38,955 bases of DNA from a virus. The DNA lies in IMG/VR virus record IMGVR_UViG_3300044814_000035, positions 1 through 38,955 of that record; one strand, given 5' to 3'. The notes beneath the pieces are model-generated. The model saw only the letters and a list, made by a program, of their open reading frames with translations. It made no database searches and was not told where the DNA came from. The translations under genes and the position numbers were made by a program. Positions 5,588 through 22,491 of the stretch are shown piece after piece. How positions within the stretch are numbered: the stretch's first letter is position 1; every line of letters starts with the position of its first letter.

Positions 5588-8500
5588 TTAGACCCTCGCC
5601 GCATCCAGTAATGATCGGAGTGATTTCTCGTATGAGCTCGGGTTGAAGAGTTTGTAGCTGATGCCGTTGCTGGACTTGCCACGAGACGATCCGGACTTCG
5701 GCTTCGTGAACTGGCCGCCATAGCCGTCGTACTTGGTCATATCGTCCTGGATCGACATAGCCTGTTTCTGGAGGGCGTACAGCTTGTCGGCTTCAGTTAC
5801 TGGATCATAGTGATTTGCCTCACTCTGGAGCTGATCGAGCTTCTGATTAGCGGCCGCCTTCCACGCTGAATAGTTGTCGTTCGTCTTGAAGCGGTCGAGC
5901 TGGTAGGATAGCCGGGCGCTATCCTGGGCGTTATTGTAGGTGAAGGTATCGGTGCTCTTGACGGTGCCGTCGCCGGCCTTGTAGTACGTTTTACCGCCGA
6001 TCTCTTTGGTCTTGTCGCTGGACTTCTTGAAAGCGGCGACAGCGGCCGTGTCGGTGTTACCGGACTTCGGTACATAAGCATCGGGGTTGATCGTACCGCT
6101 GAGGATATCTTGCTCTTTGGCGCTGGCCTGGGACTGATTGCCCTTGTAGCTTGGATCGTACTCGCCGAGGTTATTCTTCGAGCTGAAGTCGCGAGCGGTG
6201 GCGCTGGTGATATTGCTCTTGAGCTGAGACAGCATCGTCGCCTGATCGTTCGGCTTGGCGTTCTTGTAGGCGTCGGAGCTGGTGAGTTGTTTCGTCAGTG
6301 TATCGGTGTTGGACTTGAGCGCGGTCTGGTAGGCCTCGGACTGCTTATCGTTCAGAGTGACGTTGACGCCGTTCAAGTTCTGAGTGTTGTCGGGGTTCGG
6401 CTTGGCCTTGAAGCCGATCACATTAGCGACAGCGGCGGCCGGCGCTTGCTTGCCGGTGACGGTGTTAGTGGCCTGGCCGAACGGTATCGGGAGAACAGTC
6501 TGGGCGACATTGAGTCCGGCTTGTGGCGCGGAGATCTTCGAGCCGCCGTTCTTCTTGGTGTTCGTGCCATACAGCGGTTGGTCGTAGTAGTTCTTATTAC
6601 TGAGGAGCTGGATCGCTTCGGAAGGCAAGGCGGCCGAGCGGTTCTGGACATAGCTCAGGAGGCCGGAAGCGTTCCAGGCCTTGCCGGTCTTATTGGTAGG
6701 CTTGACCGCGTCGACGACTTCGGAGATGTGAGTTTTTGGTAGGCCGACTTTATAGCCGCCCATCTCGAAGCTCGGATCGATAAGGTTGCCAGCGGCGTCA
6801 GTTGCGACTTGCTTAGCGCTTTTACCCTTGTAATCGCCTCCAGCGGCGGCGCCAGCACTCGCCAGGACTCCGAAGAGGAGCGCTTTACCGAGTACAGCTT
6901 GCCGGGCTGTAGTAGCGGCGGCGGAGCCGTCCTTGAGGTTGGCGGCCTTGAATAGAGTGGCGAACTTGCCCTCGGTGAAGTCGGTAGCCAGGAGGCCGCG
7001 CTGTAGCCAGCGGAAGTTAGCCGGCTTGATGCCCTGGACTTCGCGATTGATACCGCCGAAGAGGTTATTGATCGAGTCGGCCTGTTGGCGGATCTTAGCC
7101 AGATCAGCCGGGACGGTAGGATCGAGGCCTTGAGTTTTTTGCTCGAAGATCTTGAGCTTAGCATAAGGGATCTCGCGCTGGAAGGTGGCGTCGTGCATCG
7201 CCTGGATGCCGGTGTACTTGGCCGCTTTCTCGCCGGCACCGCCCAGAGCGTTCGGATCAGTCTTATCCAGGCCTTTAATGTTGGCATCGGCGAGGATATC
7301 CTTCGAGCGGATCGTCAGGCCGCCGAGGTGAGCCTTGTCGAGTACGCCATCATCAGCCATACGCGAGAGCTCGTGGTGCATAGCGTCGTCGCTAAAGAAG
7401 ACCTTAGCCAGTCGACCAGTCGCGGCAGGATCAGTAAATAACTTGCCGGACGCGATCTGTTGACCGACGAAGTTGCCGCTCTCGGTGAAGGCGTGGAAGA
7501 GGCCACCGGATAGCTTGACGTACTTGAGACCTCGGTTGACCTTATCGTAAGTGTCGAGGATCTTGCTGTCGTTCGGTTGCCAGGTACGGCTATTGATCTC
7601 CCGGGCGATATCTTTCGGAGCGCTGAGGTCGTTACCGAAGGGATGCTGGATCTGGACGTACTTGCCGTCATTACCGGAGCGTGGGATCTCACCGTTGGCG
7701 ATCTTGCCGGGGAAGGCCTCATTGAGACCCTTCTCATAGGCGAGTTTGGCGTGGTTGAAGCTGGAGCCCATGATATCGCGCTCGAGGGCATCACCGACGT
7801 CCTTAGCCTGTGACTCGATCGTTCGAGCTTTGGTATAGCCGGGCGTCTTATTGGCGCCGCCGCCGTGAAGTTGCTCGTCGCCGGTCGGTACAATATCGCC
7901 CTCTTCGGCGACTTTATCGAAGAAGTGGCGGATATAGTTCGTGCGGTAGCCGACATCGAGGCCGAGCTTGGTGTCATACGCGTGCCGGGTATCGAAGTAA
8001 TTACGGAGCGACTCCTGGGCTTGCTTGAAGGCGGCAGGATCCTCGGCAGTTTTGGCGACCTTCGTGACGGTGTTTTGCTCGATATCCTTGAGGAGCATCT
8101 GATCGTGAGCTGATAGCGATCGGTAGTCCTGGAGCGCGTGGGATCCGAGCTCTTGCTCTTTGGACTGGACGAAGCGGCTATTGAGCGTCGCTTGCTTATA
8201 ATCACCCTCGCCGACGGTAGGCAAGTCTTGAGGGGCGTTCTTAGCACCTTCAGCGAGCAAGGGGTTCTTACCGAGGCCGGTCTCGATGTTGGCTTCTTTG
8301 GCGACGCGGCTGACATCTTTGACGGCCTTCTGGAGTGTCGTGCCGGTATCTTTCATGTATTGCTCGAGGATAGTGTCGTTCGATGTACCCTTGTTAAGAC
8401 TGTTGAGAACGGTGCGCTCAGCGTCAGGGTTGCGGACTTCGGCCTTTGGATCGATAGTCGGGATCTTCTTCGTGGTAAGTGAGGCGCGGCCTTCGGGGGT

Positions 8501-10528
8501 GTTCATAAGCGACTCGAACTCGCCCTGATCCATAGCGGCCGGCGCTTTCGTATTGACCTTGACCTGGGCTTTCGTGCCCTTCGGGTACTGGCTGAGCTCG
8601 TCCTGGCGAGCCTTGAGAGCATCATCGATCTGCTTGAAGGCGCCAGACATCGGGTGAGAGCCGGACGTCAGTTGCTTCTCGGCCTCGACCAGAGCTTCGG
8701 CCTTCGTCATGCCCTTTCTTGGGGCGTTGTCCTGGATCGCCTGGAGGAGATCGTCTTCACTATGGAAGCCGAGGTTTGTCGCCCACTCGTCGAGCGCTTG
8801 CTTGTTTGGATCCAGGCTTCTCATAAACTTCGGTAGCGACTGATAGTCTTCGGGGAGGCCGCCCTTACCGACATAGACGCTGTTACGCCCCATCTGATCA
8901 TATACGCCAGGCTGTCGCTCTTGAGCCTGGCGTATCTCATCGGCGACTGATCCGACGGCACTCTTGCGAGCCTGTTCGATCTGCTGGACGAGTGGATCTG
9001 AGACGCCGGTCTTCTTCGGGGTAGCCTTCGGAGTCTCGATATTGCCGACATCAGCCGGGGTTTGATTGAGGTTTTCGACGTTCTTCGTGCCCTGGATGCC
9101 GTCGAGTTCGTTCATAAGCGCGTCGCTTTTCGCCATCTGAGTATCAAGCGCGGCGACTTTCTTCTTGCCATCACTGAGGAGCTGATCGACAGGATCGGCT
9201 TGCTTAGCAACGACGTCAGCGTTCGGAGGTGCTGTTTTGGCGGCCGCCTGTGCGTTCTTAGCCTCTTGCGCGACCTGGATGATCTTCGGGGCGTTTGGAT
9301 CGACTGGCGTCCTGAGAGCGCCTCCAGCGAAGCCGAAGCCGGCACCGAGTTCGCCACCCTGGATCGCGGCGGCCTCTGCTTCTTTAGCGGTGACGTTCGG
9401 ATGATCGCCGTATACCATGCCTGTATTGATCGCGGCACCTTGCGGAGCGCCGGCGGCGGATTCGATGCCACCAGTAAGAAGACGCTGAGCGGCGGCACTC
9501 TCGAGCGTTGGAGCGACCTCTTTACTACCATAGCCGAGCGTTGCCTGGATAGCGGCTTCGGTGGCTGGCGTCGATACATCTGCTCCGAGCAAGGCGGCGG
9601 CATAAGGTGAAACGACGTCAGTGGCCGCACCGGCGACAGATGGAGCGGCTACCATAGCGATTTCGGCGGCGGTATTGCCGGCGATCTGCTTGGCTATCTC
9701 TCCGGAGTCAGTGGTACCGAAGACGCGCTTTTGAGCCCTGGTGGTTCTATCGATACCGGACTGGCGGATCGTCGGATCGCTACTCATGGCATCGAACTCG
9801 CCCCGGAGTGCATCCGGTACGTTGCCGAGACCATAGGCGGTTTTCGCGAACGGCTTGACGATCATCTGAGGCAGGGAAGCGGCTTGATCAGCCTGGGCTC
9901 GAGCGTCAGCGGCGGCCTGAGCCTGTTTATTGCCGGTAGCTTCGGCGATGATTGATCGGCTTGGCTCGACGATATCGCCAGTGACAGTATTGACGATCGG
10001 CTTGGCGATCACGTTGCCGGCGGTGTTCGTGATGCCGTTATGGGTAATAGCGTGGATAACAGAGTCATTTTGCTTCGTGGTGCTGTCTTGACTGAAGGAG
10101 CGGCCAGAGTCGGCCGGGTTGATCTGATCCCAGAGTTTTGACCTCAGCGACCGGGTGTCGCCGTTGCTTTTAGCTTGCGCGGCCTGGCCTGTTGGCGTTA
10201 GGTGTGAGCCGGTAGGATCCTCCCATCCGGTGACGTTGCCGCTGTTATCGTGATAAACCTTCGTCGCGGTAGCCGGGACGCCTGGCGCTGGAGGCGCTTG
10301 AATAGGCGTCGGCGGCGCGACGTGGAAGGCTGGAGCTTGCGGAGTACCGAAGGTGAGGTGAGGAGCTTGAACGCCGGGGATCTGGGGCGCTTGTTGTTGT
10401 GGTGCCTGGAGGTTACGCAAATTAGTACCCGGTGGCGGTGTGACTGCCGGGCGATTATTTTGGTTGTTATTGTTGCCCTGACCAGGGTGAACGATGTCAT
10501 TGAAGACACGTTGTAGGCTCCAGCCCAT
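5588..10528 (-). CDS. Very large internal virion / DNA ejection protein (1646 aa)
   Basis: This is the longest gene in the window, with start ATG at 10528 preceded by AAGGAG. The N-terminus (about residues 20-90) is rich in Asn, Pro and Gln and likely disordered. Residues about 200-420 are Ala-rich helices with Gly-rich hydrophobic stretches (GAGFGFAGGALRTP). Long helical linkers follow. Near the middle is a segment GYRTNYIRHFFDK, of the kind found in large polyvalent and ejection proteins of many phages. Around residues 1000-1290 there is a conserved-looking block with hydrophobic segment GKALLFGVLASAGAAAGG. The last 350 residues are Lys/Asp/Gln-rich helices. Such proteins are packaged in the head and form a conduit for DNA into the cell. 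No lytic transglycosylase or protease motif was recognised. It lies between another internal protein and the tail adaptor. Confidence 0.7.
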   Translation of the reverse strand: MGWSLQRVFNDIVHPGQGNNNNQNNRPAVTPPPGTNLRNLQAPQQQAPQIPGVQAPHLTFGTPQAPAFHVAPPTPIQAPPAPGVPATATKVYHDNSGNVTGWEDPTGSHLTPTGQAAQAKSNGDTRSLRSKLWDQINPADSGRSFSQDSTTKQNDSVIHAITHNGITNTAGNVIAKPIVNTVTGDIVEPSRSIIAEATGNKQAQAAADARAQADQAASLPQMIVKPFAKTAYGLGNVPDALRGEFDAMSSDPTIRQSGIDRTTRAQKRVFGTTDSGEIAKQIAGNTAAEIAMVAAPSVAGAATDVVSPYAAALLGADVSTPATEAAIQATLGYGSKEVAPTLESAAAQRLLTGGIESAAGAPQGAAINTGMVYGDHPNVTAKEAEAAAIQGGELGAGFGFAGGALRTPVDPNAPKIIQVAQEAKNAQAAAKTAPPNADVVAKQADPVDQLLSDGKKKVAALDTQMAKSDALMNELDGIQGTKNVENLNQTPADVGNIETPKATPKKTGVSDPLVQQIEQARKSAVGSVADEIRQAQERQPGVYDQMGRNSVYVGKGGLPEDYQSLPKFMRSLDPNKQALDEWATNLGFHSEDDLLQAIQDNAPRKGMTKAEALVEAEKQLTSGSHPMSGAFKQIDDALKARQDELSQYPKGTKAQVKVNTKAPAAMDQGEFESLMNTPEGRASLTTKKIPTIDPKAEVRNPDAERTVLNSLNKGTSNDTILEQYMKDTGTTLQKAVKDVSRVAKEANIETGLGKNPLLAEGAKNAPQDLPTVGEGDYKQATLNSRFVQSKEQELGSHALQDYRSLSAHDQMLLKDIEQNTVTKVAKTAEDPAAFKQAQESLRNYFDTRHAYDTKLGLDVGYRTNYIRHFFDKVAEEGDIVPTGDEQLHGGGANKTPGYTKARTIESQAKDVGDALERDIMGSSFNHAKLAYEKGLNEAFPGKIANGEIPRSGNDGKYVQIQHPFGNDLSAPKDIAREINSRTWQPNDSKILDTYDKVNRGLKYVKLSGGLFHAFTESGNFVGQQIASGKLFTDPAATGRLAKVFFSDDAMHHELSRMADDGVLDKAHLGGLTIRSKDILADANIKGLDKTDPNALGGAGEKAAKYTGIQAMHDATFQREIPYAKLKIFEQKTQGLDPTVPADLAKIRQQADSINNLFGGINREVQGIKPANFRWLQRGLLATDFTEGKFATLFKAANLKDGSAAATTARQAVLGKALLFGVLASAGAAAGGDYKGKSAKQVATDAAGNLIDPSFEMGGYKVGLPKTHISEVVDAVKPTNKTGKAWNASGLLSYVQNRSAALPSEAIQLLSNKNYYDQPLYGTNTKKNGGSKISAPQAGLNVAQTVLPIPFGQATNTVTGKQAPAAAVANVIGFKAKPNPDNTQNLNGVNVTLNDKQSEAYQTALKSNTDTLTKQLTSSDAYKNAKPNDQATMLSQLKSNITSATARDFSSKNNLGEYDPSYKGNQSQASAKEQDILSGTINPDAYVPKSGNTDTAAVAAFKKSSDKTKEIGGKTYYKAGDGTVKSTDTFTYNNAQDSARLSYQLDRFKTNDNYSAWKAAANQKLDQLQSEANHYDPVTEADKLYALQKQAMSIQDDMTKYDGYGGQFTKPKSGSSRGKSSNGISYKLFNPSSYEKSLRSLLDAARV

Positions 10529-12950: not shown

Positions 12951-13796
12951 CTAGGCTACGGCGTGGAGACCGATACACTTGACACGGTTCGCGTCAACGA
13001 AGGTGTCATAGCGGTGTCGGTACTCGAGCAAGTCGCCGCTGATGCCCGGAGGGTTGTTGTGGAGTGTGTAGTCCTCCAGCTTTTCCGGAGCTACGGTCGC
13101 GCTTGGGTGAGTGATCACCAGGTCGATCGCGCCAGATGTGGCCGGCATACGGTTCGATGGGATGATTTGGACAGGCACGCCGTCGACAGAGCCGAGGTTG
13201 CCAGTCTTGCGATCCTCATACGCGTTGTCAGCGTTCAGCACGAAGCCGGACTGCTTGAGCAAGTTGTAGTAGTTCGCGGTCATACCACAGACACGACCCT
13301 CGGTAGGGCACTCGTCGTCGGTGATCTGAGCGTTAATGGTGGTGAAGTTGCTGAAGGCGTTCGCCGAGGTTGTTACCGCTTTGGCAACGATAGCGTCGCG
13401 AGACGAACCGGCACCGGCGGTAGCGATGGTCTGGAGGATGTAGGTGTCCATTTCTGGTACAAGTACGTTCTTCGTCGCTTGCGCTAGGAAGGCTCCAGGG
13501 TTGCGAATAGCAAGCGTGTCCTGCTTATTCTTCTTGTCCATGATCTTCGCCCACGATCGGTCACGGACAAGCGTGAAGGTCTGGATCGTGTCTTCGACTT
13601 CGGTCGGGTTGCCGTAACGGTTTCCTGAACCGTTGGCGTTGTAGTTACCCATGATCGGATCAGCGAGGGTGTAGACGTTGATCGCGCCGACTCCGTCCCA
13701 GTCCCAGTCCTGGTTCACCATGCCCTCAGTCTTACGACGTGCTTTCAACAGGTCGGATGTGACTGGGGCAAACTTGGTAGCTAGGTTAATAGGCAT
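12951..13796 (-). CDS. Major capsid protein (HK97 fold)
   Basis: This encodes 281 residues. It has the layout of the capsid family common in phages of Gram-positive bacteria: a short N-terminal helix (NLATKFAPVTSDLLKARR), then a VNQDWDWDGVGAINVYTLAD stretch, then RYG.PTEVEDTIQTFTLVRDRSW leading into the spine helix with PEMDTYILQTIA. The C-terminal half carries a substrate-like VDGVPVQIIPSNRMP segment and an EDYTLHNNPP turn near the end. It follows the scaffold gene by 33 bases. The capsid is probably built with a separate scaffold protein rather than a fused delta domain. Protein identity is well supported by both pattern and position. Confidence 0.85.
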   Translation of the reverse strand: MPINLATKFAPVTSDLLKARRKTEGMVNQDWDWDGVGAINVYTLADPIMGNYNANGSGNRYGNPTEVEDTIQTFTLVRDRSWAKIMDKKNKQDTLAIRNPGAFLAQATKNVLVPEMDTYILQTIATAGAGSSRDAIVAKAVTTSANAFSNFTTINAQITDDECPTEGRVCGMTANYYNLLKQSGFVLNADNAYEDRKTGNLGSVDGVPVQIIPSNRMPATSGAIDLVITHPSATVAPEKLEDYTLHNNPPGISGDLLEYRHRYDTFVDANRVKCIGLHAVA

Positions 13797-15172: not shown

Positions 15173-15624
15173 TTCTTGGGCTCCGGAGCTGGCGTCTTAG
15201 CGGCGTCCTGCCATGCTTGAGGTAGTTCGGCGTTGCGAGCTTCCTCGGCCTCTTTATCGGCACGCTTGGCGACTCTGAGGGTGTTCTTGAGCCGGTTCTT
15301 GGCGGACTTGAGCCACTCGATGTGCATCGCCTGGGCGAGTACCTGAGCCATCAGGAGATCTTTATTGTCGACGTTCATACGAGCGGCCAGTGGGATCATG
15401 GATCGGAGCTCGTCGAAGTCCATGCCGAGGATCTTCGTCTCCATACTGCCGACGTCCTTGATATCCTTGTTGATCCAGGCGATCAGGATCTCGGCGCCGG
15501 GCGTCAGTTGATCGCGTTCACCGGAGCGCTTGCGAAGCTGTTCGTCCAGGCGTTCTTTAGCGCGGCGCTCGACGGCGCTACTCATGCCAGTATTCAGGGA
15601 TCCGTCGTTTCGTTCTCCAGCCAT
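15169..15624 (-). CDS. Hypothetical helical protein between portal and scaffold genes
   Basis: These 151 residues are almost all helical and highly charged. A first helix covers about residues 15-35, a second block is IPLAARMNVDNKDLLMAQVL, and a long basic helix follows (KSAKNRLKNTLRVAKRADKE). It ends with a Pro/Lys tail. ATG overlaps the portal stop. No family was recognised. The place between portal and scaffold suggests a head-assembly role. Confidence 0.55.
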   Translation of the reverse strand: MAGERNDGSLNTGMSSAVERRAKERLDEQLRKRSGERDQLTPGAEILIAWINKDIKDVGSMETKILGMDFDELRSMIPLAARMNVDNKDLLMAQVLAQAMHIEWLKSAKNRLKNTLRVAKRADKEAEEARNAELPQAWQDAAKTPAPEPKK

Positions 15625-18140
15625 TACTGAGCACCTCCAGCGGCGACCGGGACGCCTGAGTTACGTTTCATGCCGGCAATAACTTCTTGGATAGGGTAGC
15701 CCTGGCGTTCAGCTTCGAGGGCGGCGGCGGCAACGTGAGCGTCGACGTGGTAAAGCTCCATGACTTGCTTGATGTGAGCCTGGGCGGTAGCCATATCAAG
15801 CGCCGGGGCGTTGCTAGGCTTGGTCGGAGCGGCGGCACCTTGCGGCTCAGTTGGAGCGCCGGCGGCTTTTGGATCGGTAGGAGCGCCATCTTTCTGAGGT
15901 GGGTTGAAGGTCTTGTGGGCTTCGAGCATGAGCTTACCCTTGTCAATCTTCAGTCGCTCAGCTTCGAGGGCTTGCTGGTGAGCCTGGGCGTCGGTCTTGA
16001 GGGCACGATCGGTCTCGGCGTTAGGATCGGGCGTAACCGCTACAGCGCCTTCGGGAGGCTGTTCTTGAGCGTTAGGATCGGGCGTAATACCGGCCATCTG
16101 CTTGATCTGAGCCTTCTCCTGGACGGTAGTGCTGGCGTCTTTCATAATGTCGCCATAGTCGATATTCTCTTCCATGAGGTTCGCGTTTTGAGGTAAGTTG
16201 ACACCACCACTTTGTAACGCGGCGCCCATAGCGGCGGTCGGGATCTTGCCGGTAAGTCGGATCTGAGGAGGATCGATAATCGGGAAGGGTTGCTGTTGTG
16301 CTTTTTGCTTGTCTTCGTCGGTCATCTTCTGGATGACAGCGTTGAAGTTCACGAGGTTCATCTTGGAGAGCATGGCATACAGCGTCTCACCCATATCGAA
16401 CTTCCAGCCGGCCTGTGCCAGGTAGTAAATCGTCTGAGGTGTCATGGTCTTTATGACGTCCTGGAGCACCGTCACCTGTTCGGCGTCGCTGGTGAGGTTG
16501 TTGGTCGATGGATCGATCTCGAAGTCGAAGGTAGCGCGTGAGTTGTCCCAGATGATCTGTAGCTGTTTGGTAGGCTGGCCGGTCTGATCGAGAGGGAACT
16601 CGAGGCCGGCTTTCATAAGCTGATCGCGCTCGTCAGTTGAGAGCTGGAGGAGATCGTTGCCTTGCATATTGGCGAACTCGGTATTGATCATCGACTTGGA
16701 GACGGCGGCATAGGCCTCTTCGACGTTCTCAGAGAAGTCCTCGTCGTCGATGGATAGGTTAGCGGCGGCGAACTTGACGCCAGCTGGTGTCTTGGAGGCG
16801 TTAGGATCGCCATTGTCGGCCGCGATGCTGGTGTCGCCCTGTGGCAGTAGGTTATTGAGCGACTGCTTGTACATATTGATCCTGCCGGGGAGCTGAGAAT
16901 AAACGCCGTTAGCCATCTCCATACGCTCGACTTTGGCGTTGCCGACATACCAGTTCGCATCTTGAGCGTAGACAAGTGAGTCTTCGTCGACCTCGTCTTC
17001 GTCGCCGATGATCTGCTTCGGTGGGCGGAGTCCGAGCTGAGTCGCCAGGACGTCAGCTTGCCTCATGTAGTCGAGGACGTTCTGAGTACCGCCGGCCAGC
17101 TTGACGATGCCGATGCCGTAAGGGTTGACGAAGTCCTGGTAGCAGTAGAGATAATGGACTGGCACGTCACCAGTTGGATCGGGGTTGTTCCACTCGCGGA
17201 CGCACTTCTTACTCGAGAGGTGCATCATGCTAAACGGCGCATCGACGCCACGCTGGAAGGCGATGACGAAGTGGTGGCCGGTCTTGCGTACACCCTTGCC
17301 AGTTTCACCCTTTGGAGTTTCGCGGCCGGAGCGTGATTGCTTGGCGTCAGACTTACGGATGGCGATGAGAGCATCGATATCCCAGCGGTTATAAGGTTCG
17401 GTGACTTGATCATCAGGCTCATCATCTTCGGTCTTGGAGTCGTACTTCTCGATCTGAGCGCCAGTGTTGGTGACTTGACTGGAGTTGACCTTGCGATCGC
17501 CCTTCTTGGGCTGTTTATCACTGTCTCCGTCATTGTCTGAGTCTTTGGTTTTAGCGTTGGCGACGTAAGGCGTGCCGGCATCGGCGAGCTCTTCTTTGGC
17601 CTCCTCGATCATGTTGTCGATCTGGAGATCGGAGTAATACACGTCCCAGAAGATGATATCTGAGTCTTCGTCGGAGTCCTTGCCGGCTTCGAGCTTGACG
17701 TCTTGAGCATAAGGGACGATGAAGTCAGCGCCTCGGTAGTTGCCGCGCTGGACGAACAGGGTGATGATCGGTTGACCGCCGAAGATGGCGGCTTTACGGA
17801 CAGCATCCTTCCACTTGCGACGCGGTGTTGCCTTGCTCTTGGCGTTCGGCAAGATCTTCTTGTTCCAGTAGATATTCGCGAGGGTTGTGATCCACTCGTC
17901 GTCGCGATCGAGAGCGACGGCCTGGCCGCCCAGGTTCTTTTTGATAACGCGCTTCGCGAGCTTGAAGAGCGAGGCGGCGAGCGAGCCGTCGTTGACTTCG
18001 GGAAGGTTCTCGTCGAGATCCTCGAGGAGACCGTTGTCCGCTAGTCGTTCGTACTGTGGATAATCGATACGCCATTGATCGGCTTCAGAGGTTGAGTCTT
18101 CATATGCCTGTAGTATTTCTTCTTCGTCGAGGTAAGCCAC
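15624..18140 (-). CDS. Portal protein (podovirus-size, 838 aa)
   Basis: The start is GTG at 18140, 7 bases after AAAGGA. Residues about 40-330 hold the clip/wing region, with HFVIAFQRGVDAPFSMMHLS and VPVHYLYCYQDFVNPYGIGI typical of portals. The stem/crown part follows with YMRQADVLATQLGLRPPKQI. A region KTPAGVKFAAANLSIDDEDF then leads into the FANMQGNDLLQLS segment. The last 200 residues form a Gln/Ala/Pro-rich helical tail that could be a barrel reaching into the head, as in long podovirus portals. It docks the terminase and the adaptor. Position between terminase and scaffold is canonical. Confidence 0.85.
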   Translation of the reverse strand: MAYLDEEEILQAYEDSTSEADQWRIDYPQYERLADNGLLEDLDENLPEVNDGSLAASLFKLAKRVIKKNLGGQAVALDRDDEWITTLANIYWNKKILPNAKSKATPRRKWKDAVRKAAIFGGQPIITLFVQRGNYRGADFIVPYAQDVKLEAGKDSDEDSDIIFWDVYYSDLQIDNMIEEAKEELADAGTPYVANAKTKDSDNDGDSDKQPKKGDRKVNSSQVTNTGAQIEKYDSKTEDDEPDDQVTEPYNRWDIDALIAIRKSDAKQSRSGRETPKGETGKGVRKTGHHFVIAFQRGVDAPFSMMHLSSKKCVREWNNPDPTGDVPVHYLYCYQDFVNPYGIGIVKLAGGTQNVLDYMRQADVLATQLGLRPPKQIIGDEDEVDEDSLVYAQDANWYVGNAKVERMEMANGVYSQLPGRINMYKQSLNNLLPQGDTSIAADNGDPNASKTPAGVKFAAANLSIDDEDFSENVEEAYAAVSKSMINTEFANMQGNDLLQLSTDERDQLMKAGLEFPLDQTGQPTKQLQIIWDNSRATFDFEIDPSTNNLTSDAEQVTVLQDVIKTMTPQTIYYLAQAGWKFDMGETLYAMLSKMNLVNFNAVIQKMTDEDKQKAQQQPFPIIDPPQIRLTGKIPTAAMGAALQSGGVNLPQNANLMEENIDYGDIMKDASTTVQEKAQIKQMAGITPDPNAQEQPPEGAVAVTPDPNAETDRALKTDAQAHQQALEAERLKIDKGKLMLEAHKTFNPPQKDGAPTDPKAAGAPTEPQGAAAPTKPSNAPALDMATAQAHIKQVMELYHVDAHVAAAALEAERQGYPIQEVIAGMKRNSGVPVAAGGAQ

Positions 18141-18214
18141 TAATTACATCCTTTTGAGGATCGGGCAGGGCTTCGTCGAGGTATTCTGCTGACTCCGTTT
18201 GTTTATCTGTAAGA

Positions 18215-18220
18215 AATATA
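18215..18220 (-). promoter_or_regulatory. Extended -10 promoter candidate before portal gene
   Basis: Read leftward, TGTTATATT matches an extended -10 (TG-n-TATATT), about 75 bases before the portal GTG. It sits in the 103-base gap between the portal gene and the 98-residue gene to its right. No -35 consensus is seen. Confidence 0.4.
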
Positions 18221-18243
18221 ACATAACCGCTTGTGGTTGCCTA

Positions 18244-18540
18244 CTAGCGCCCATAGTATTCTTTGTTCACGAGCCAGGTAACAACAATGAAGCGCGGCTC
18301 GCCGGTCTTCTTGTCGGTTGTGATCTTCAGGTCGAGCTCCGGGGTCTCGGCATTACGGATCATCTCGGAGTGCATGATCAAGTCAGCGGCCAGGGTATCG
18401 CGGCTAGTGTCGAAGGTGCGAGTGATCTCCTGGCTGGTGCTCGATAGATCCTTGAAGGTCGAGTGACTGTCGATGACGGTCGAGCCATCGTCTTGAGGGC
18501 GGAAGGTTTTAACTTTGGTATGTGGTGGCGTTTGCAACAT
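18244..18540 (-). CDS. Hypothetical protein between terminase nuclease and portal
   Basis: This 98-residue protein has an N-terminal polar part, a Ser/Thr-rich centre (FKDLSSTSQEITRTFDTSRD) and a C-terminal beta hairpin (TGEPRFIVVTWLVNKEYYGR). It has a GGAG site 7 bases before ATG. No family was recognised. It belongs to the packaging cluster by position. Confidence 0.55.
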   Translation of the reverse strand: MLQTPPHTKVKTFRPQDDGSTVIDSHSTFKDLSSTSQEITRTFDTSRDTLAADLIMHSEMIRNAETPELDLKITTDKKTGEPRFIVVTWLVNKEYYGR

Positions 18541-18551
18541 GAGTGATCTCC

Positions 18552-19202
18552 TTAGATATGCATCTTTAAGCGCTTATTTTTGTCCGGACGACGGTGTTTC
18601 TTCGTGATCGGGTTCTCAGTCTGGAAGAGTTGCCACATCCCGGCGGCCGACATAACGGCGTCATCGTGGGTATTCGGAGCGGCTTCGGGCTTGCCGTTCT
18701 TGGAGACGATGAAGGTGTTATGCTGAGCGATCGTCTCTTCGTCGTAGATAGTGATCGCCTGGGACTCGAAGGCCTTGAGCCAGTCACCGAGCATCTTCGG
18801 CCGGGTGCCGGTGCCGAACTGACCGCCGGTCGTATCCCATCCAGGCTTATCACCGTCAGGCTTGCCGAGTTCGTCCCTCATGTAGTAGATCCGGTACGAT
18901 CCATCATTGTACTTGATGAGGTTGTGCATCTCGCTCGAGCCGCCATTGTTGCGCTCCAGGGCGACGACAGGCTTGACGCCGGTCTTCTTGTAGATCCAGT
19001 TCAGACCGTCACGAAGGAAGGGTGTCATCTCACTGGCGACGCCTTGCATCTGTAGGATCAGCGGTATATCGCGGCTAGTCTTCGAGCCGAACTGTACGAA
19101 GTTGGAGTCGATGCCGCCTTGAGAGGTATCACCGAACACAACGAAGAACTCGCCGGGCTTGATGTTACGGAAGAGTCTGAAGCCGTTGACTACTTCGCTC
19201 AT
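18552..19202 (-). CDS. terL: Large terminase subunit, nuclease half (separate gene)
   Basis: The 216 residues form a stand-alone RNase H-like terminase nuclease. The three metal-binding acidic positions are visible: D25 in VVFGDTSQGG, E83 in VVALERNNGG and D180/D181 in NTHDDAVMSAAG. This domain cuts concatemeric DNA at the ends of packaging. In nearly all tailed phages it is the C-terminal half of one large-terminase chain. Here it has its own ATG (overlapping the preceding stop as ATGA), and the ATPase half is encoded 540 bases upstream with two small genes in between. The two halves probably assemble as a complex. No catalytic residue is missing, so it should be active. Confidence 0.85.
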   Translation of the reverse strand: MSEVVNGFRLFRNIKPGEFFVVFGDTSQGGIDSNFVQFGSKTSRDIPLILQMQGVASEMTPFLRDGLNWIYKKTGVKPVVALERNNGGSSEMHNLIKYNDGSYRIYYMRDELGKPDGDKPGWDTTGGQFGTGTRPKMLGDWLKAFESQAITIYDEETIAQHNTFIVSKNGKPEAAPNTHDDAVMSAAGMWQLFQTENPITKKHRRPDKNKRLKMHI

Positions 19203-19501
19203 TTAAGCTTGTCCTTGCCTGATAGCTTGCGTATCAGTGGGAAGAGCGTGCCATCTTCGACCTTTGGCATAGGCATATAGACCGATCGGGGCTGGCCGGT
19301 GAAGTCATGGACGACAAGTGGATCGACACCGTTGGCGATGTACGTCTTATCGTCGAGCTTGGCGAAGCGGACATCCGGGCGGATATCTGAGCTGGCATCG
19401 TCGGTACGGTGAAGCGTGACCATAGCGCGGCCGTTGCGATCCCGGACGATCGTGAGGTTCTTGAGGATGCCGAGGCGGTAGAGTAGGCGGCTAAATAACA
19501 T
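19199..19501 (-). CDS. Small protein inserted between terminase halves (second)
   Basis: The 100 residues begin with a basic amphipathic helix (MLFSRLLYRLGILKNLTIVR) and continue into a beta-rich domain (FAKLDDKTYIANGVDPLVVH, then RSVYMPMPKVEDGTLFP) with a basic end. Its start overlaps the end of the previous small gene by 11 bases and its stop overlaps the nuclease start, so translation is coupled. No family was recognised. It could be a bridge that joins the two terminase halves or a docking factor. Confidence 0.6.
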   Translation of the reverse strand: MLFSRLLYRLGILKNLTIVRDRNGRAMVTLHRTDDASSDIRPDVRFAKLDDKTYIANGVDPLVVHDFTGQPRSVYMPMPKVEDGTLFPLIRKLSGKDKLK

Positions 19502-19748
19502 CGAAGTCCTCCGGCGGCAGTACGCCTTCGATCAAGTTGTGAAGCACTTCGAGCTCTTCTTCAGTGATGCCCTGGTCGTGATTGTGCTGATACTCGGTGT
19601 TGACGAGCTCATGGAGACCCTGGCGGAAGATCTGAGTCGCGGTCTCATGGTCGATCGGCTCAGGCGTGACGATCTGAACCGTCCCATTTTTGAGGTTGAT
19701 GATCTGGGCTTTGGCTTTGAGATAGCCGAGTGAGTGTTGCATGGTCAT
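19491..19748 (-). CDS. Small protein inserted between terminase halves (first)
   Basis: These 85 residues have an N-terminal beta part (KAKAQIINLKNGTVQIVTPE) and a helical, acidic C-terminus (ITEEELEVLHNLIEGVLPPE). The start ATGA overlaps the stop of the terminase ATPase gene. No homing-endonuclease or intron-type motif is present, so a selfish insertion is not indicated. The function is unknown, though its coupling to both terminase genes suggests a packaging role. Confidence 0.6.
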   Translation of the reverse strand: MTMQHSLGYLKAKAQIINLKNGTVQIVTPEPIDHETATQIFRQGLHELVNTEYQHNHDQGITEEELEVLHNLIEGVLPPEDFDVI

Positions 19749-20749
19749 CCTAACGCCTCCGCGTAAGTGGCGGTCTTGATTGGTGTTTTGATCCGGTTAG
19801 TATGCCAGATCCGGGCGAAGTCATCGAAGAACGTGGTGCCGGCCATCATAAAGGCTTCGTAGTCATAGGTCGGGTACTCGCGCATCCGCTTCTTGTTGGT
19901 GAGCTGGCGAGTCTTCTGATAGTGCCAGTAACACTGATCGGGTGTTGCCATGCCCTCTTCGATCAAGCGGCTGTAGTATTCAGGTGCAACCCATCCGGGC
20001 TCGGCTGGAGTGGTGTACTCCTTGTGAAGATACCAGGCGAGGAAGCGACTCTTGAACTCAGACTTGCCGTCCTTGCCTGACGTGTACTCGCGGCTGAAGA
20101 AGTCGCCGGCCATGTTGCCAGTAGTTTCGCGGAAGATCTTGCCATAGTTTTGAGGCACTTGCTCTTCGGCACCAGTGACGAGCGTCTCAGCGTCGAGGAT
20201 CGTGGTGTTGGAGTAGAAGGCGACCTCTGACCAGTGGATGTTCTGCTTGGTGCTACCACGTCCGGCAACCTTAGCGCCAGCGGTAGCGGTCTGGATCTGA
20301 GTGCTATTCTTGGCGACGAGTAGGTTCGTGGTGTCGGTCTTGAGGATAGTGTTGCGGAGCTTGAGCCCTTCGAGCCGTTGCTTAGCGTCGCGGTAGTCGC
20401 CGCCGACTTCAGTGACGAGGTAGCTGTCCAGGAACATATTGACGCGTTGGAAGTGCGCCTCGGTGTCTTTATCGCGGTAGGAGTAGATCTCGGAGTCAGT
20501 CAGTGGGATCCAGCCTCGAGCTGACATGATGAAGTCGGTGGTGAAGATGCCGGCGATCACAGTGGAGATACCGAACTGTCGACCTTTGAGATCGTTCTCG
20601 CGGATGCCCTGGAGTGGCTTGCCATAGCTCTCGAGGAGCTGGTCATACCACATATTCTGTACGGCGTTGAACTTGAACGGTATGATCTCGCCCTTCTTAG
20701 TCTTGAGGAAGAAGTATTGCTCGATGAAGCCTTTGTAGTCGATATCCAT
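19745..20749 (-). CDS. terL: Large terminase subunit, ATPase half (separate gene)
   Basis: These 334 residues cover the DNA-translocating ATPase. The Walker A-like loop is GRQFGIST at residues 56-63, preceded by the adenine-contact region PFKFNAVQNMWYDQ. The Walker B/catalytic segment is IHWSEVAF at 171-178, with the glutamate in the SEVAF form seen in P22-like terminases. The chain ends soon after YDYEAFMMAGTTFFDD, exactly where other large terminases pass into the nuclease domain. The start at 20749 was chosen because it overlaps the stop of the 51-residue gene as TAATG. A longer frame to 20929 runs through that gene in another frame and has atypical composition. Confidence 0.85.
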   Translation of the reverse strand: MDIDYKGFIEQYFFLKTKKGEIIPFKFNAVQNMWYDQLLESYGKPLQGIRENDLKGRQFGISTVIAGIFTTDFIMSARGWIPLTDSEIYSYRDKDTEAHFQRVNMFLDSYLVTEVGGDYRDAKQRLEGLKLRNTILKTDTTNLLVAKNSTQIQTATAGAKVAGRGSTKQNIHWSEVAFYSNTTILDAETLVTGAEEQVPQNYGKIFRETTGNMAGDFFSREYTSGKDGKSEFKSRFLAWYLHKEYTTPAEPGWVAPEYYSRLIEEGMATPDQCYWHYQKTRQLTNKKRMREYPTYDYEAFMMAGTTFFDDFARIWHTNRIKTPIKTATYAEALG

Positions 20750-20904
20750 TACAGCCCCGATCCGAGTAGCTTGATCGGTGACGGTATGAGCATGGCGGTG
20801 ACTCGTCGCTCCCAGTCTTGCTTCAGCCATAGAGCTCGAGCGTGTCGACAGACTTGATGACCTGGACGCGCATAACATAGGTAATTGCCAGGCTTGACCT
20901 TCAT
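20749..20904 (-). CDS. 51-residue micro-gene upstream of terminase ATPase
   Basis: The frame MKVKPGNYLCYARPGHQVCR... is 51 residues, with two Cys and two His in the first half and a basic helix (RALWLKQDWERRVTAMLIP) after it. Start and stop both overlap neighbours (ATGA with the gene before, TAATG with the terminase ATPase), which is strong support for real translation. A small metal-binding protein is possible. Nothing is known of the family. Confidence 0.55.
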   Translation of the reverse strand: MKVKPGNYLCYARPGHQVCRHARALWLKQDWERRVTAMLIPSPIKLLGSGL

Positions 20905-21149
20905 GCTCGCCCCCAGAGCTGGAAGCCATAGCTGAAGATGATCACTTGAGCATAGATCACCCGGTCGATCATCCGTCGCTTGCCGAAGGAGCAGTCGATC
21001 AGGCGGTACCAGTTGAAGCCGATGAAGGGGTGGCGCTGGAGTGGCACATAGTCATTTATGACTGATAGTCTCATATGTGAGATAGATTTGAGCCAGTCGG
21101 GAATAAAACGCCGGCTTTTTTGGACACTGTAGGCAGTCTTTGACGTCAT
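20901..21149 (-). CDS. Hypothetical small basic protein in packaging cluster
   Basis: This 82-residue protein is basic and aromatic-rich (KSRRFIPDWLKS, PLQRHPFIGFNWYRLIDCSF). The ATG follows the previous TAG with no gap and its TGA overlaps the next start. It has a weakly hydrophobic C-terminal stretch (RVIYAQVIIFSYGFQLWG) that could touch a membrane. No family was recognised. Confidence 0.5.
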   Translation of the reverse strand: MTSKTAYSVQKSRRFIPDWLKSISHMRLSVINDYVPLQRHPFIGFNWYRLIDCSFGKRRMIDRVIYAQVIIFSYGFQLWGRA

Positions 21150-21368
21150 CTATGATATCTCCGAGTGGGGTTTGAGCGCCGGGCGTACATTGTCGTCCCG
21201 GGTTACGGCATAGGTAACAGAGTAATCATCACAGTCGCGATCGACCATACGCTCGGCGACGCGATCATATCCGAGGTCGATGTTCTTGAGAGTGCTGGCA
21301 CCGTTGACCTTCACCGTCTCGGCTACATCGTGCGGCCGGCACCTGATCTCGAAGACTAGGACTTTCAC
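21150..21368 (-). CDS. Hypothetical small protein after small terminase
   Basis: These 72 residues hold a beta-strand start (MKVLVFEIRCRPHDVAETVK), a region KNIDLGYDRVAERMVDRDCD and a TYAVTRDDNVRP end. The start overlaps the stop of the small terminase. No family was recognised and the protein lacks distinctive motifs. Confidence 0.5.
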   Translation of the reverse strand: MKVLVFEIRCRPHDVAETVKVNGASTLKNIDLGYDRVAERMVDRDCDDYSVTYAVTRDDNVRPALKPHSEIS

Positions 21369-22081
21369 TCTTCAGACTCCCCGGGCGTGATGAACATCTG
21401 GCCGCCAGTGAACAGATTGAAGTTGACGCCGCCGCCGTTGTCAGCCTTCGTCAGATGGCCTTTGAGTCGATACGCTAGTTCGAGGGCGTTGTGCTGAGAC
21501 TTTGAGTCGTCAGCCCAGTAATAAACGTGCCGGGCGGTCTCGCCGTGTACGATCTTCCGTACGGTACAGTTGACCTCGATCAGCATCTCAGTGATGTCAT
21601 CATCGGACAGGCTGGCACCCTCGACGACCTTATGCTTGCGCTTGAGAGATCCGCCATGCCCTTGAGCCTCGAGATACTCTTCGGGGATATCACCCTCGAG
21701 AGGAACTTCAGCGTCGGGATCCTGCCAGAGTGGGAAGACCATATGCTCGATCTTCTTGGCGGTGAGGAGCTTTTTGTGAGTCTTTTGGAGGAGATCATCG
21801 GGTAACATTTCAGCTAACAGATCTTGAAAGCTGTCAGCGTTGATGATCCTGCCCGGCTGTTGTGATATTGACGGTGCGTACCCAGCCTCGCGCAAAATCT
21901 CACCGGCGGCTTTGGGCGAGCCTTTTCTAACATTATCGGTAAATAACTGAGCGGCTTTTATCTGTCGCGGTCTTGGAGCTCGCTTTTGCTTTGCTTTGGC
22001 AATCACCTCCCCTTCCGCGACTGCCCTGCCCTGCTCCAGTTGAGCTTTATCGCCGGACACGAACGATTGAGCATCACTCAT
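21365..22081 (-). CDS. terS: Small terminase subunit
   Basis: These 238 residues start at the ATG at 22081, which overlaps the previous stop as ATGA. A basic stretch (KAKQKRAPRPRQIKAAQLF) precedes a helix-turn-helix-like region (PKAAGEILREAGYAPSISQQ) followed by FQDLLAEMLPDDLLQKTHKK and KKIEHMVFP, a run of features usual in small terminases of phages of Gram-positive bacteria. The C-terminal part has a helix with NALELAYRLKGHLTKAD, likely the oligomer/ATPase-contact end. It recognises phage DNA and hands it to the large subunit. The order small terminase, then large terminase, then portal is standard. Confidence 0.75.
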   Translation of the reverse strand: MSDAQSFVSGDKAQLEQGRAVAEGEVIAKAKQKRAPRPRQIKAAQLFTDNVRKGSPKAAGEILREAGYAPSISQQPGRIINADSFQDLLAEMLPDDLLQKTHKKLLTAKKIEHMVFPLWQDPDAEVPLEGDIPEEYLEAQGHGGSLKRKHKVVEGASLSDDDITEMLIEVNCTVRKIVHGETARHVYYWADDSKSQHNALELAYRLKGHLTKADNGGGVNFNLFTGGQMFITPGESEE

Positions 22082-22491
22082 CTCGCCCACCGGCTATTCG
22101 GCTTTACATCACCGCCTTCGATCAGACCTGGTTCGTTGCCGGCGGCTAGTACCATCGGATCAAACGTCTCGAGCACTTCCCCTTCATGGACTGTATCGTC
22201 TTCGATGTTGACCACGATCTCCATGACGTTGAGCGCTGTTTTGTAAAAACGATCCTCGGTGTACATCATCTCAGCGGTGTACGGCATGATCGAGACGAAC
22301 TGTCGATGAGTGAGGAGTAGGAACGAGGGTAGCTCGGTAATCATCCACTGTTGCGTTGCGGCTACTGAGCCGATGATCACTTGATGGAGATCTTCACCCA
22401 GGAACTCGCCGACATCGCGGAGATCGAGTTGCTTCTGGATAACGCCGCCGCGAAATGTTTCTGTTGGCTTGATAATCGGGTAGTTCTTCAT
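22078..22491 (-). CDS. Hypothetical protein, first gene of packaging operon
   Basis: The 137 residues contain a helical section (LRDVGEFLGEDLHQVIIGSV), a hydrophobic section (ITELPSFLLLTHRQFVSIMP) and an acidic C-terminus. GAGG stands 4 bases before the ATG. It is the first gene after a promoter candidate at 22533. The family is unknown. Its place at the head of the operon before the small terminase suggests a packaging or regulatory role. Confidence 0.55.
   Translation of the reverse strand: MKNYPIIKPTETFRGGVIQKQLDLRDVGEFLGEDLHQVIIGSVAATQQWMITELPSFLLLTHRQFVSIMPYTAEMMYTEDRFYKTALNVMEIVVNIEDDTVHEGEVLETFDPMVLAAGNEPGLIEGGDVKPNSRWAR

Follow-up and report, generated by a model that had tools for sequence, protein, structure and literature searches.

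A large terminase encoded by separate ATPase and nuclease genes in a lineage of environmental tailed phages

How the ATPase and the nuclease of the large terminase (TerL) cooperate during DNA packaging is still argued. A natural form of this question is raised by the 38,955-base IMG/VR virus record analysed here as a whole (hereafter, the window), whose minus strand encodes the two TerL domains in two genes with two small genes lying between them. Is this locus a damaged gene, a gene whose halves are joined again during expression, or the blueprint of a motor that works as two proteins? We examined the catalytic residues of both halves, the distribution of the split among relatives and the structure of the junction.

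Gene layout and catalytic residues

Four ORFs follow one another on the minus strand, namely the 334-aa ATPase half of TerL (20749-19745), two small ORFs of 85 aa (19748-19491) and 100 aa (19501-19199), and the 216-aa nuclease half (19202-18552). The ATPase ORF overlaps the 85-aa ORF by an ATGA, the two small ORFs overlap by 11 bases, and a second ATGA connects the 100-aa ORF to the nuclease ORF; SD-like motifs are present upstream of the starts of both small ORFs (GGAGG) and of the nuclease ORF (AAGGA). These places and overlaps are those given in an initial annotation of this DNA, and the stop/start overlaps bear out its reading of the genes as one overlapping operon.

Relatives were found by single-protein and alignment searches (viral contigs and one MAG contig), classed according to whether or not both halves lie in one ORF, and cleared of near-copies, leaving 122 non-redundant rows, of which 108 are split (window included) and 14 fused. 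These counts should not be read as a survey, because split halves served as the search seeds, which inflates the share of split members. The nuclease half used in a single-protein scan of viral contigs yielded no confirmed relatives.

The ATPase half carries terminase-type ATPase motifs, as judged from their conservation and from a profile match to T4 gp17 (see below). Its Walker A motif (K55-GRQFGIST, 20561-20587) is of the deviant type, the lysine opening the motif and I-S standing in place of the K-T of T4; K55, R57 and G60 are invariant across all 104 split rows aligned there, and position 62 is either S or T. The Walker B region (IHWSEVAF, 20216-20239) contains the catalytic glutamate E175, and the motif III, or coupling motif (ETTGN, 20114-20128), contains T210, both being invariant (108/108 split rows); the residue following T210 is G or A, and N212 is kept in 100 of the 108 rows. 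The motif positions first proposed (K55...S62, E175, T210) therefore stand, with one small correction, namely the deviant P-loop just described. Relatives of the ATPase half with 45-57% identity share its start methionine. The fold model of this half is poor (pLDDT 60), but T4 gp17 accounts for the four best PDB matches.

The nuclease half displays an RNase H fold with an acidic triad. Its model is confident (pLDDT 85), the best PDB matches being the TerL nuclease domains of G20c, P74-26, T4 gp17 and RB49 (E 5e-8 to about 1e-6), and the protein matches the terminase family phrog_24361 (E 3e-8). The catalytic residues D25 (19128-19130), E83 (18954-18956) and D180/D181 (18660-18665) are found where they had been placed; D25 and E83 are invariant in 108/108 split rows, and D181 and D180 are kept in 106/106 and 105/106, respectively, of the rows aligned there. 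As catalytic residues are kept in nearly all split rows, their conservation argues for continued selection on both the ATPase and the nuclease activities. Neither half reaches any Pfam-A family at E 0.1, which explains how short TerL halves escape annotation.

A family profile built from the split members joined in order and from the fused relatives aligns with T4 gp17 over the full length (probability 99.9%, E 3e-30). The arrangement resembles that of T4 gp17 (Terminase_6N + Terminase_6C), an ATPase followed by an RNase H nuclease with the catalytic residues in register, D25, E83 and D180/D181 aligning with T4 D401, E458 and D542. The nuclease half starts opposite T4 residue 384 and the cut falls at about residues 376-384, hence within about 20 residues of residue 360, which we take, from T4 structures, to be the domain border of gp17. 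The initial annotation had described a TerL in which ATPase and nuclease are each complete but are separated at the domain linker, and this description is confirmed.

Distribution of the split among relatives

The window shares its split with 107 other non-redundant loci, all cut at the same linker and encoding the two domains as separate polypeptides. In the tree of rows, all split rows fall into one clade (SH-aLRT 99), the nearest outgroup of which is fused (L171, L175, L181, L182 and L184). Two fused rows, L177 and L178, are nested deep inside this clade, and their sequence runs directly across the junction. Indeed, a single clade of split rows that leaves out L177/L178 is rejected in a smaller tree of the ATPase half (p-AU 5e-32). 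One ancient gene fission, then one or two re-fusions, would be the simplest reading of the tree; a history of repeated, independent fissions at one point is possible too, at the price of more events. The split is an old trait of the whole lineage and not a quirk of the window phage.

The split recurs in more than 100 contigs, which rules out chance and sequencing error as well as the assembly error that had been named earlier as a possible refutation. The idea that the split reflects decay or misassembly, the real TerL being encoded elsewhere, is accordingly left with a negligible probability, since the recurring split is identical and comes with conserved active sites, and no other terminase family match was found among the window ORFs searched. 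As initially claimed, the locus is not a damaged gene.

A nucleotide search of isolate phages gave no match, and protein searches of isolates gave distant matches only, among which the inspected annotated TerLs are single-gene, save that of Vibrio phage Va1. In a sample of 395 Bacteroidota genomes, the one match was the MAG contig already in the set. Our literature search, which covered the field incompletely and included few subscription papers, returned no account of a TerL divided in nature into an ATPase and a nuclease. Two further observations were made on individual relatives. The fused TerL of Bacteroides phage BS-TP4 (L018, 3698-5794) is annotated as a tail spike protein, as is that of BF1-TP2, which is probably a mis-annotation. 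An intein-like insertion with LAGLIDADG similarity is seen in the ATPase half of two loci (L192:2977-4935 and L194:2995-4911), in which the TerL is nonetheless split at the usual junction.

The junction between the halves

Junction geometry could be measured in 107 split loci, one locus being without a usable start. The halves are adjacent or at most 60 bases apart in 79 of these loci (71 pairs share 1 to 56 bases, and the other 8 are separated by no more than 60), and the gap exceeds 60 bases in the other 28, reaching about 1.3 kb. SD-like motifs precede 59/107 nuclease starts, versus 17% of random positions and 30% of ATPase starts, an enrichment that fits separate initiation of the nuclease half.

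Joining of the halves after transcription or translation, through an intron, a split intein or a programmed frameshift, has precedents among phages. The terL gene of phage ICP1 is interrupted by a spliced intron (PMC10448857), and the TerL of Vibrio phage Va1 (L110:3327-6744) is encoded by two ORFs that overlap, with intein-like ends and a segment resembling a DUF559 endonuclease; this TerL looks like a gene fractured with a split intein, the product of which should be rejoined. The window resembles ICP1 in having two coding parts, but splicing restores one protein in ICP1 (PMC10448857), whereas in the window other genes lie between the halves and an Rfam search of positions 17900-21500 gave no match up to E 0.5, thus detecting no group I or group II intron. 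It resembles Va1 in that the TerL coding sequence is broken into two ORFs, but instead of intein-like ends it has a cut at the domain boundary: Pfam searches found no intein domain in either TerL half and no intein or homing-nuclease domain in the window, and neither the alignment of rows nor the profile alignment with T4 gp17 leaves spare residues at the junction. These empty searches agree with the earlier statement that the locus is devoid of intron and homing nuclease motifs. As for a frameshift, the nuclease ORF does lie in one common shifted frame in 59 of the 79 adjacent pairs, but the pairs as a whole show mixed offsets (59/18/2), and gaps of more than 60 bases occur in 28 loci. Rejoining of the halves is, on this evidence, very unlikely.

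Splitting by a homing endonuclease offers a different comparison. A ribonucleotide reductase gene split in this way is described, in work cited in PMC10448857, as functioning as two peptides; it is similar to the present case as an essential gene expressed as two polypeptides without splicing, and differs in the enzyme concerned. HNH_3 nuclease genes occur at the TerL junction in three relatives (L074, L121 and L161), but no homing nuclease is found between the halves in the window.

Are the two small genes, then, parts of the motor? The initial annotation had suggested that their products might bridge it, and their translational coupling to both halves is in line with such a role, as is the presence of similar ORFs at the same site in other loci. 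For the 85-aa protein these are found in L023 and L024, the nearest kin of the window (z about 6.2 over shuffles); for the 100-aa protein there is one partial relative, in the distant L066 (44% over 50 aa; E 3e-8, from a small set). Against this role, no gene lies between the halves in 79 of the 107 measurable split relatives, and a bridging gene is not needed where the halves are adjacent or at most 60 bases apart. Other relatives hold unrelated cargo: besides the HNH_3 genes, DNA methylases (L077, L154), an NTP transferase (L071), a NinG-like protein (L104), an M24 peptidase (L189) and, elsewhere, methyltransferases, a HAD-like protein and small unknown proteins. Moreover, the 85-aa family is restricted, among the loci seen, to the three-row clade of the window. 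The bridging role is consequently unsupported and we regard it as quite improbable. The 85-aa ORF has no Pfam or PHROG match above the cut-off, and scans of viral contigs with the 85-aa and with the 100-aa protein returned no confirmed relatives. The best reading is that the junction serves as a cargo site, and neither small gene is a requirement for the split.

Proposed assembly and exchange of the halves

We propose that an ancient single fission at the hinge produced two TerL halves that assemble non-covalently and are encoded in a joint operon with the small genes as passengers, a reading to which we give a probability of about 0.8. A two-subunit TerL in the lineage of the window is very likely. 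The window phage belongs to a large environmental tailed-phage lineage in which TerL would have been split once at the ATPase/nuclease hinge. Both proteins would be made from one operon. The ATPase half would assemble on the portal as a ring; docked on it non-covalently, the nuclease half would cut DNA as packaging starts and ends. The 85- and 100-aa genes would sit in a permissive gap, outside the motor.

Non-covalent function is not a given, since T4 gp17 split at its linker keeps its ATPase and nuclease activities and loses DNA translocation (PMC3012670, PMC9958956). This artificial split lies near the natural cut of the window lineage. The T4 nuclease domain bears the proposed DNA-moving groove, and translocation requires both domains in one chain (PMC9958956). 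Gp17 is a single chain with a hinge reported as essential for translocation (PMC9958956), whereas in the window the hinge is a gene boundary. We nevertheless lean towards a packaging motor without a covalent ATPase-nuclease link, in which the hinge regarded as essential in T4 would be dispensable and the subunits would evolve and be swapped as modules.

The relatives provide several cases that bear on such exchanges. Pairwise identities of the ATPase and nuclease halves correlate (r 0.69), with clear outliers. The nuclease half of L069 is 72% identical to that of L076 and falls inside the L076 clade (support 100/99); its ATPase half groups elsewhere. For groups chosen after the identity outliers had been noticed, the ATPase tree rejects the grouping of L069 with the L076 clade (p-AU 0.0015) and, in a second mismatch, the nuclease tree rejects the ATPase grouping of L073/L084 (p-AU 0.0008). 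L069 alone could be a chimeric contig; the L073/L084 case rests on several contigs. Judging from these trees, at least two lineages seem to have acquired new combinations of halves by independent re-pairing. In L150:793-2223, a 477-aa protein combines an ATPase of the TerL family of the window with a nuclease of another family, Terminase_3C.

These re-pairings and the L150 fusion suggest loose coupling, and it is possible, if rather unlikely, that the ATPase half translocates DNA alone while an independent nuclease half visits only to cut, the hinge being dispensable in this lineage. The need for both domains in one chain in T4 (PMC9958956) speaks against such independence, as do the maintenance of the halves in one operon and the correlation of their identities. 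We infer that the halves cooperate as one motor, with docking on the ATPase ring as our first choice and independent cutting as the main alternative. A natural lineage that combines an ancient split with conserved active sites provides a ready test of the need for a covalent hinge, and a two-gene TerL lets each subunit be expressed, mutated and swapped singly.

The surroundings of the locus contain other probable packaging and head genes on the same strand. The gene upstream of the ATPase half (21365-22090) is a probable small terminase, judging from this position and from a similarity of its C-terminal stretch to the corresponding upstream gene in relatives, and a putative portal-like protein is encoded downstream of TerL (15624-18140), with by-eye similarity to the 676-696-aa ORFs found there in relatives; neither has a Pfam or PHROG family match. 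The major capsid protein (12951-13796) matches phrog_422, a major head protein (E 1.6e-35). A 1646-aa ORF (5588-10528) is matched by neither Pfam nor PHROG at E 0.001. Among the relatives, L003 and L006:6932-7501 carry an extra 189-aa ORF, by eye similar to an HNH/AP2-type homing nuclease and missing at that place from the near-identical L004 and L005. Finally, between its nuclease half and portal-like gene the window has a 98-aa ORF (18244-18540) that looks, by eye, similar to ORFs placed much alike in L007 and L008.
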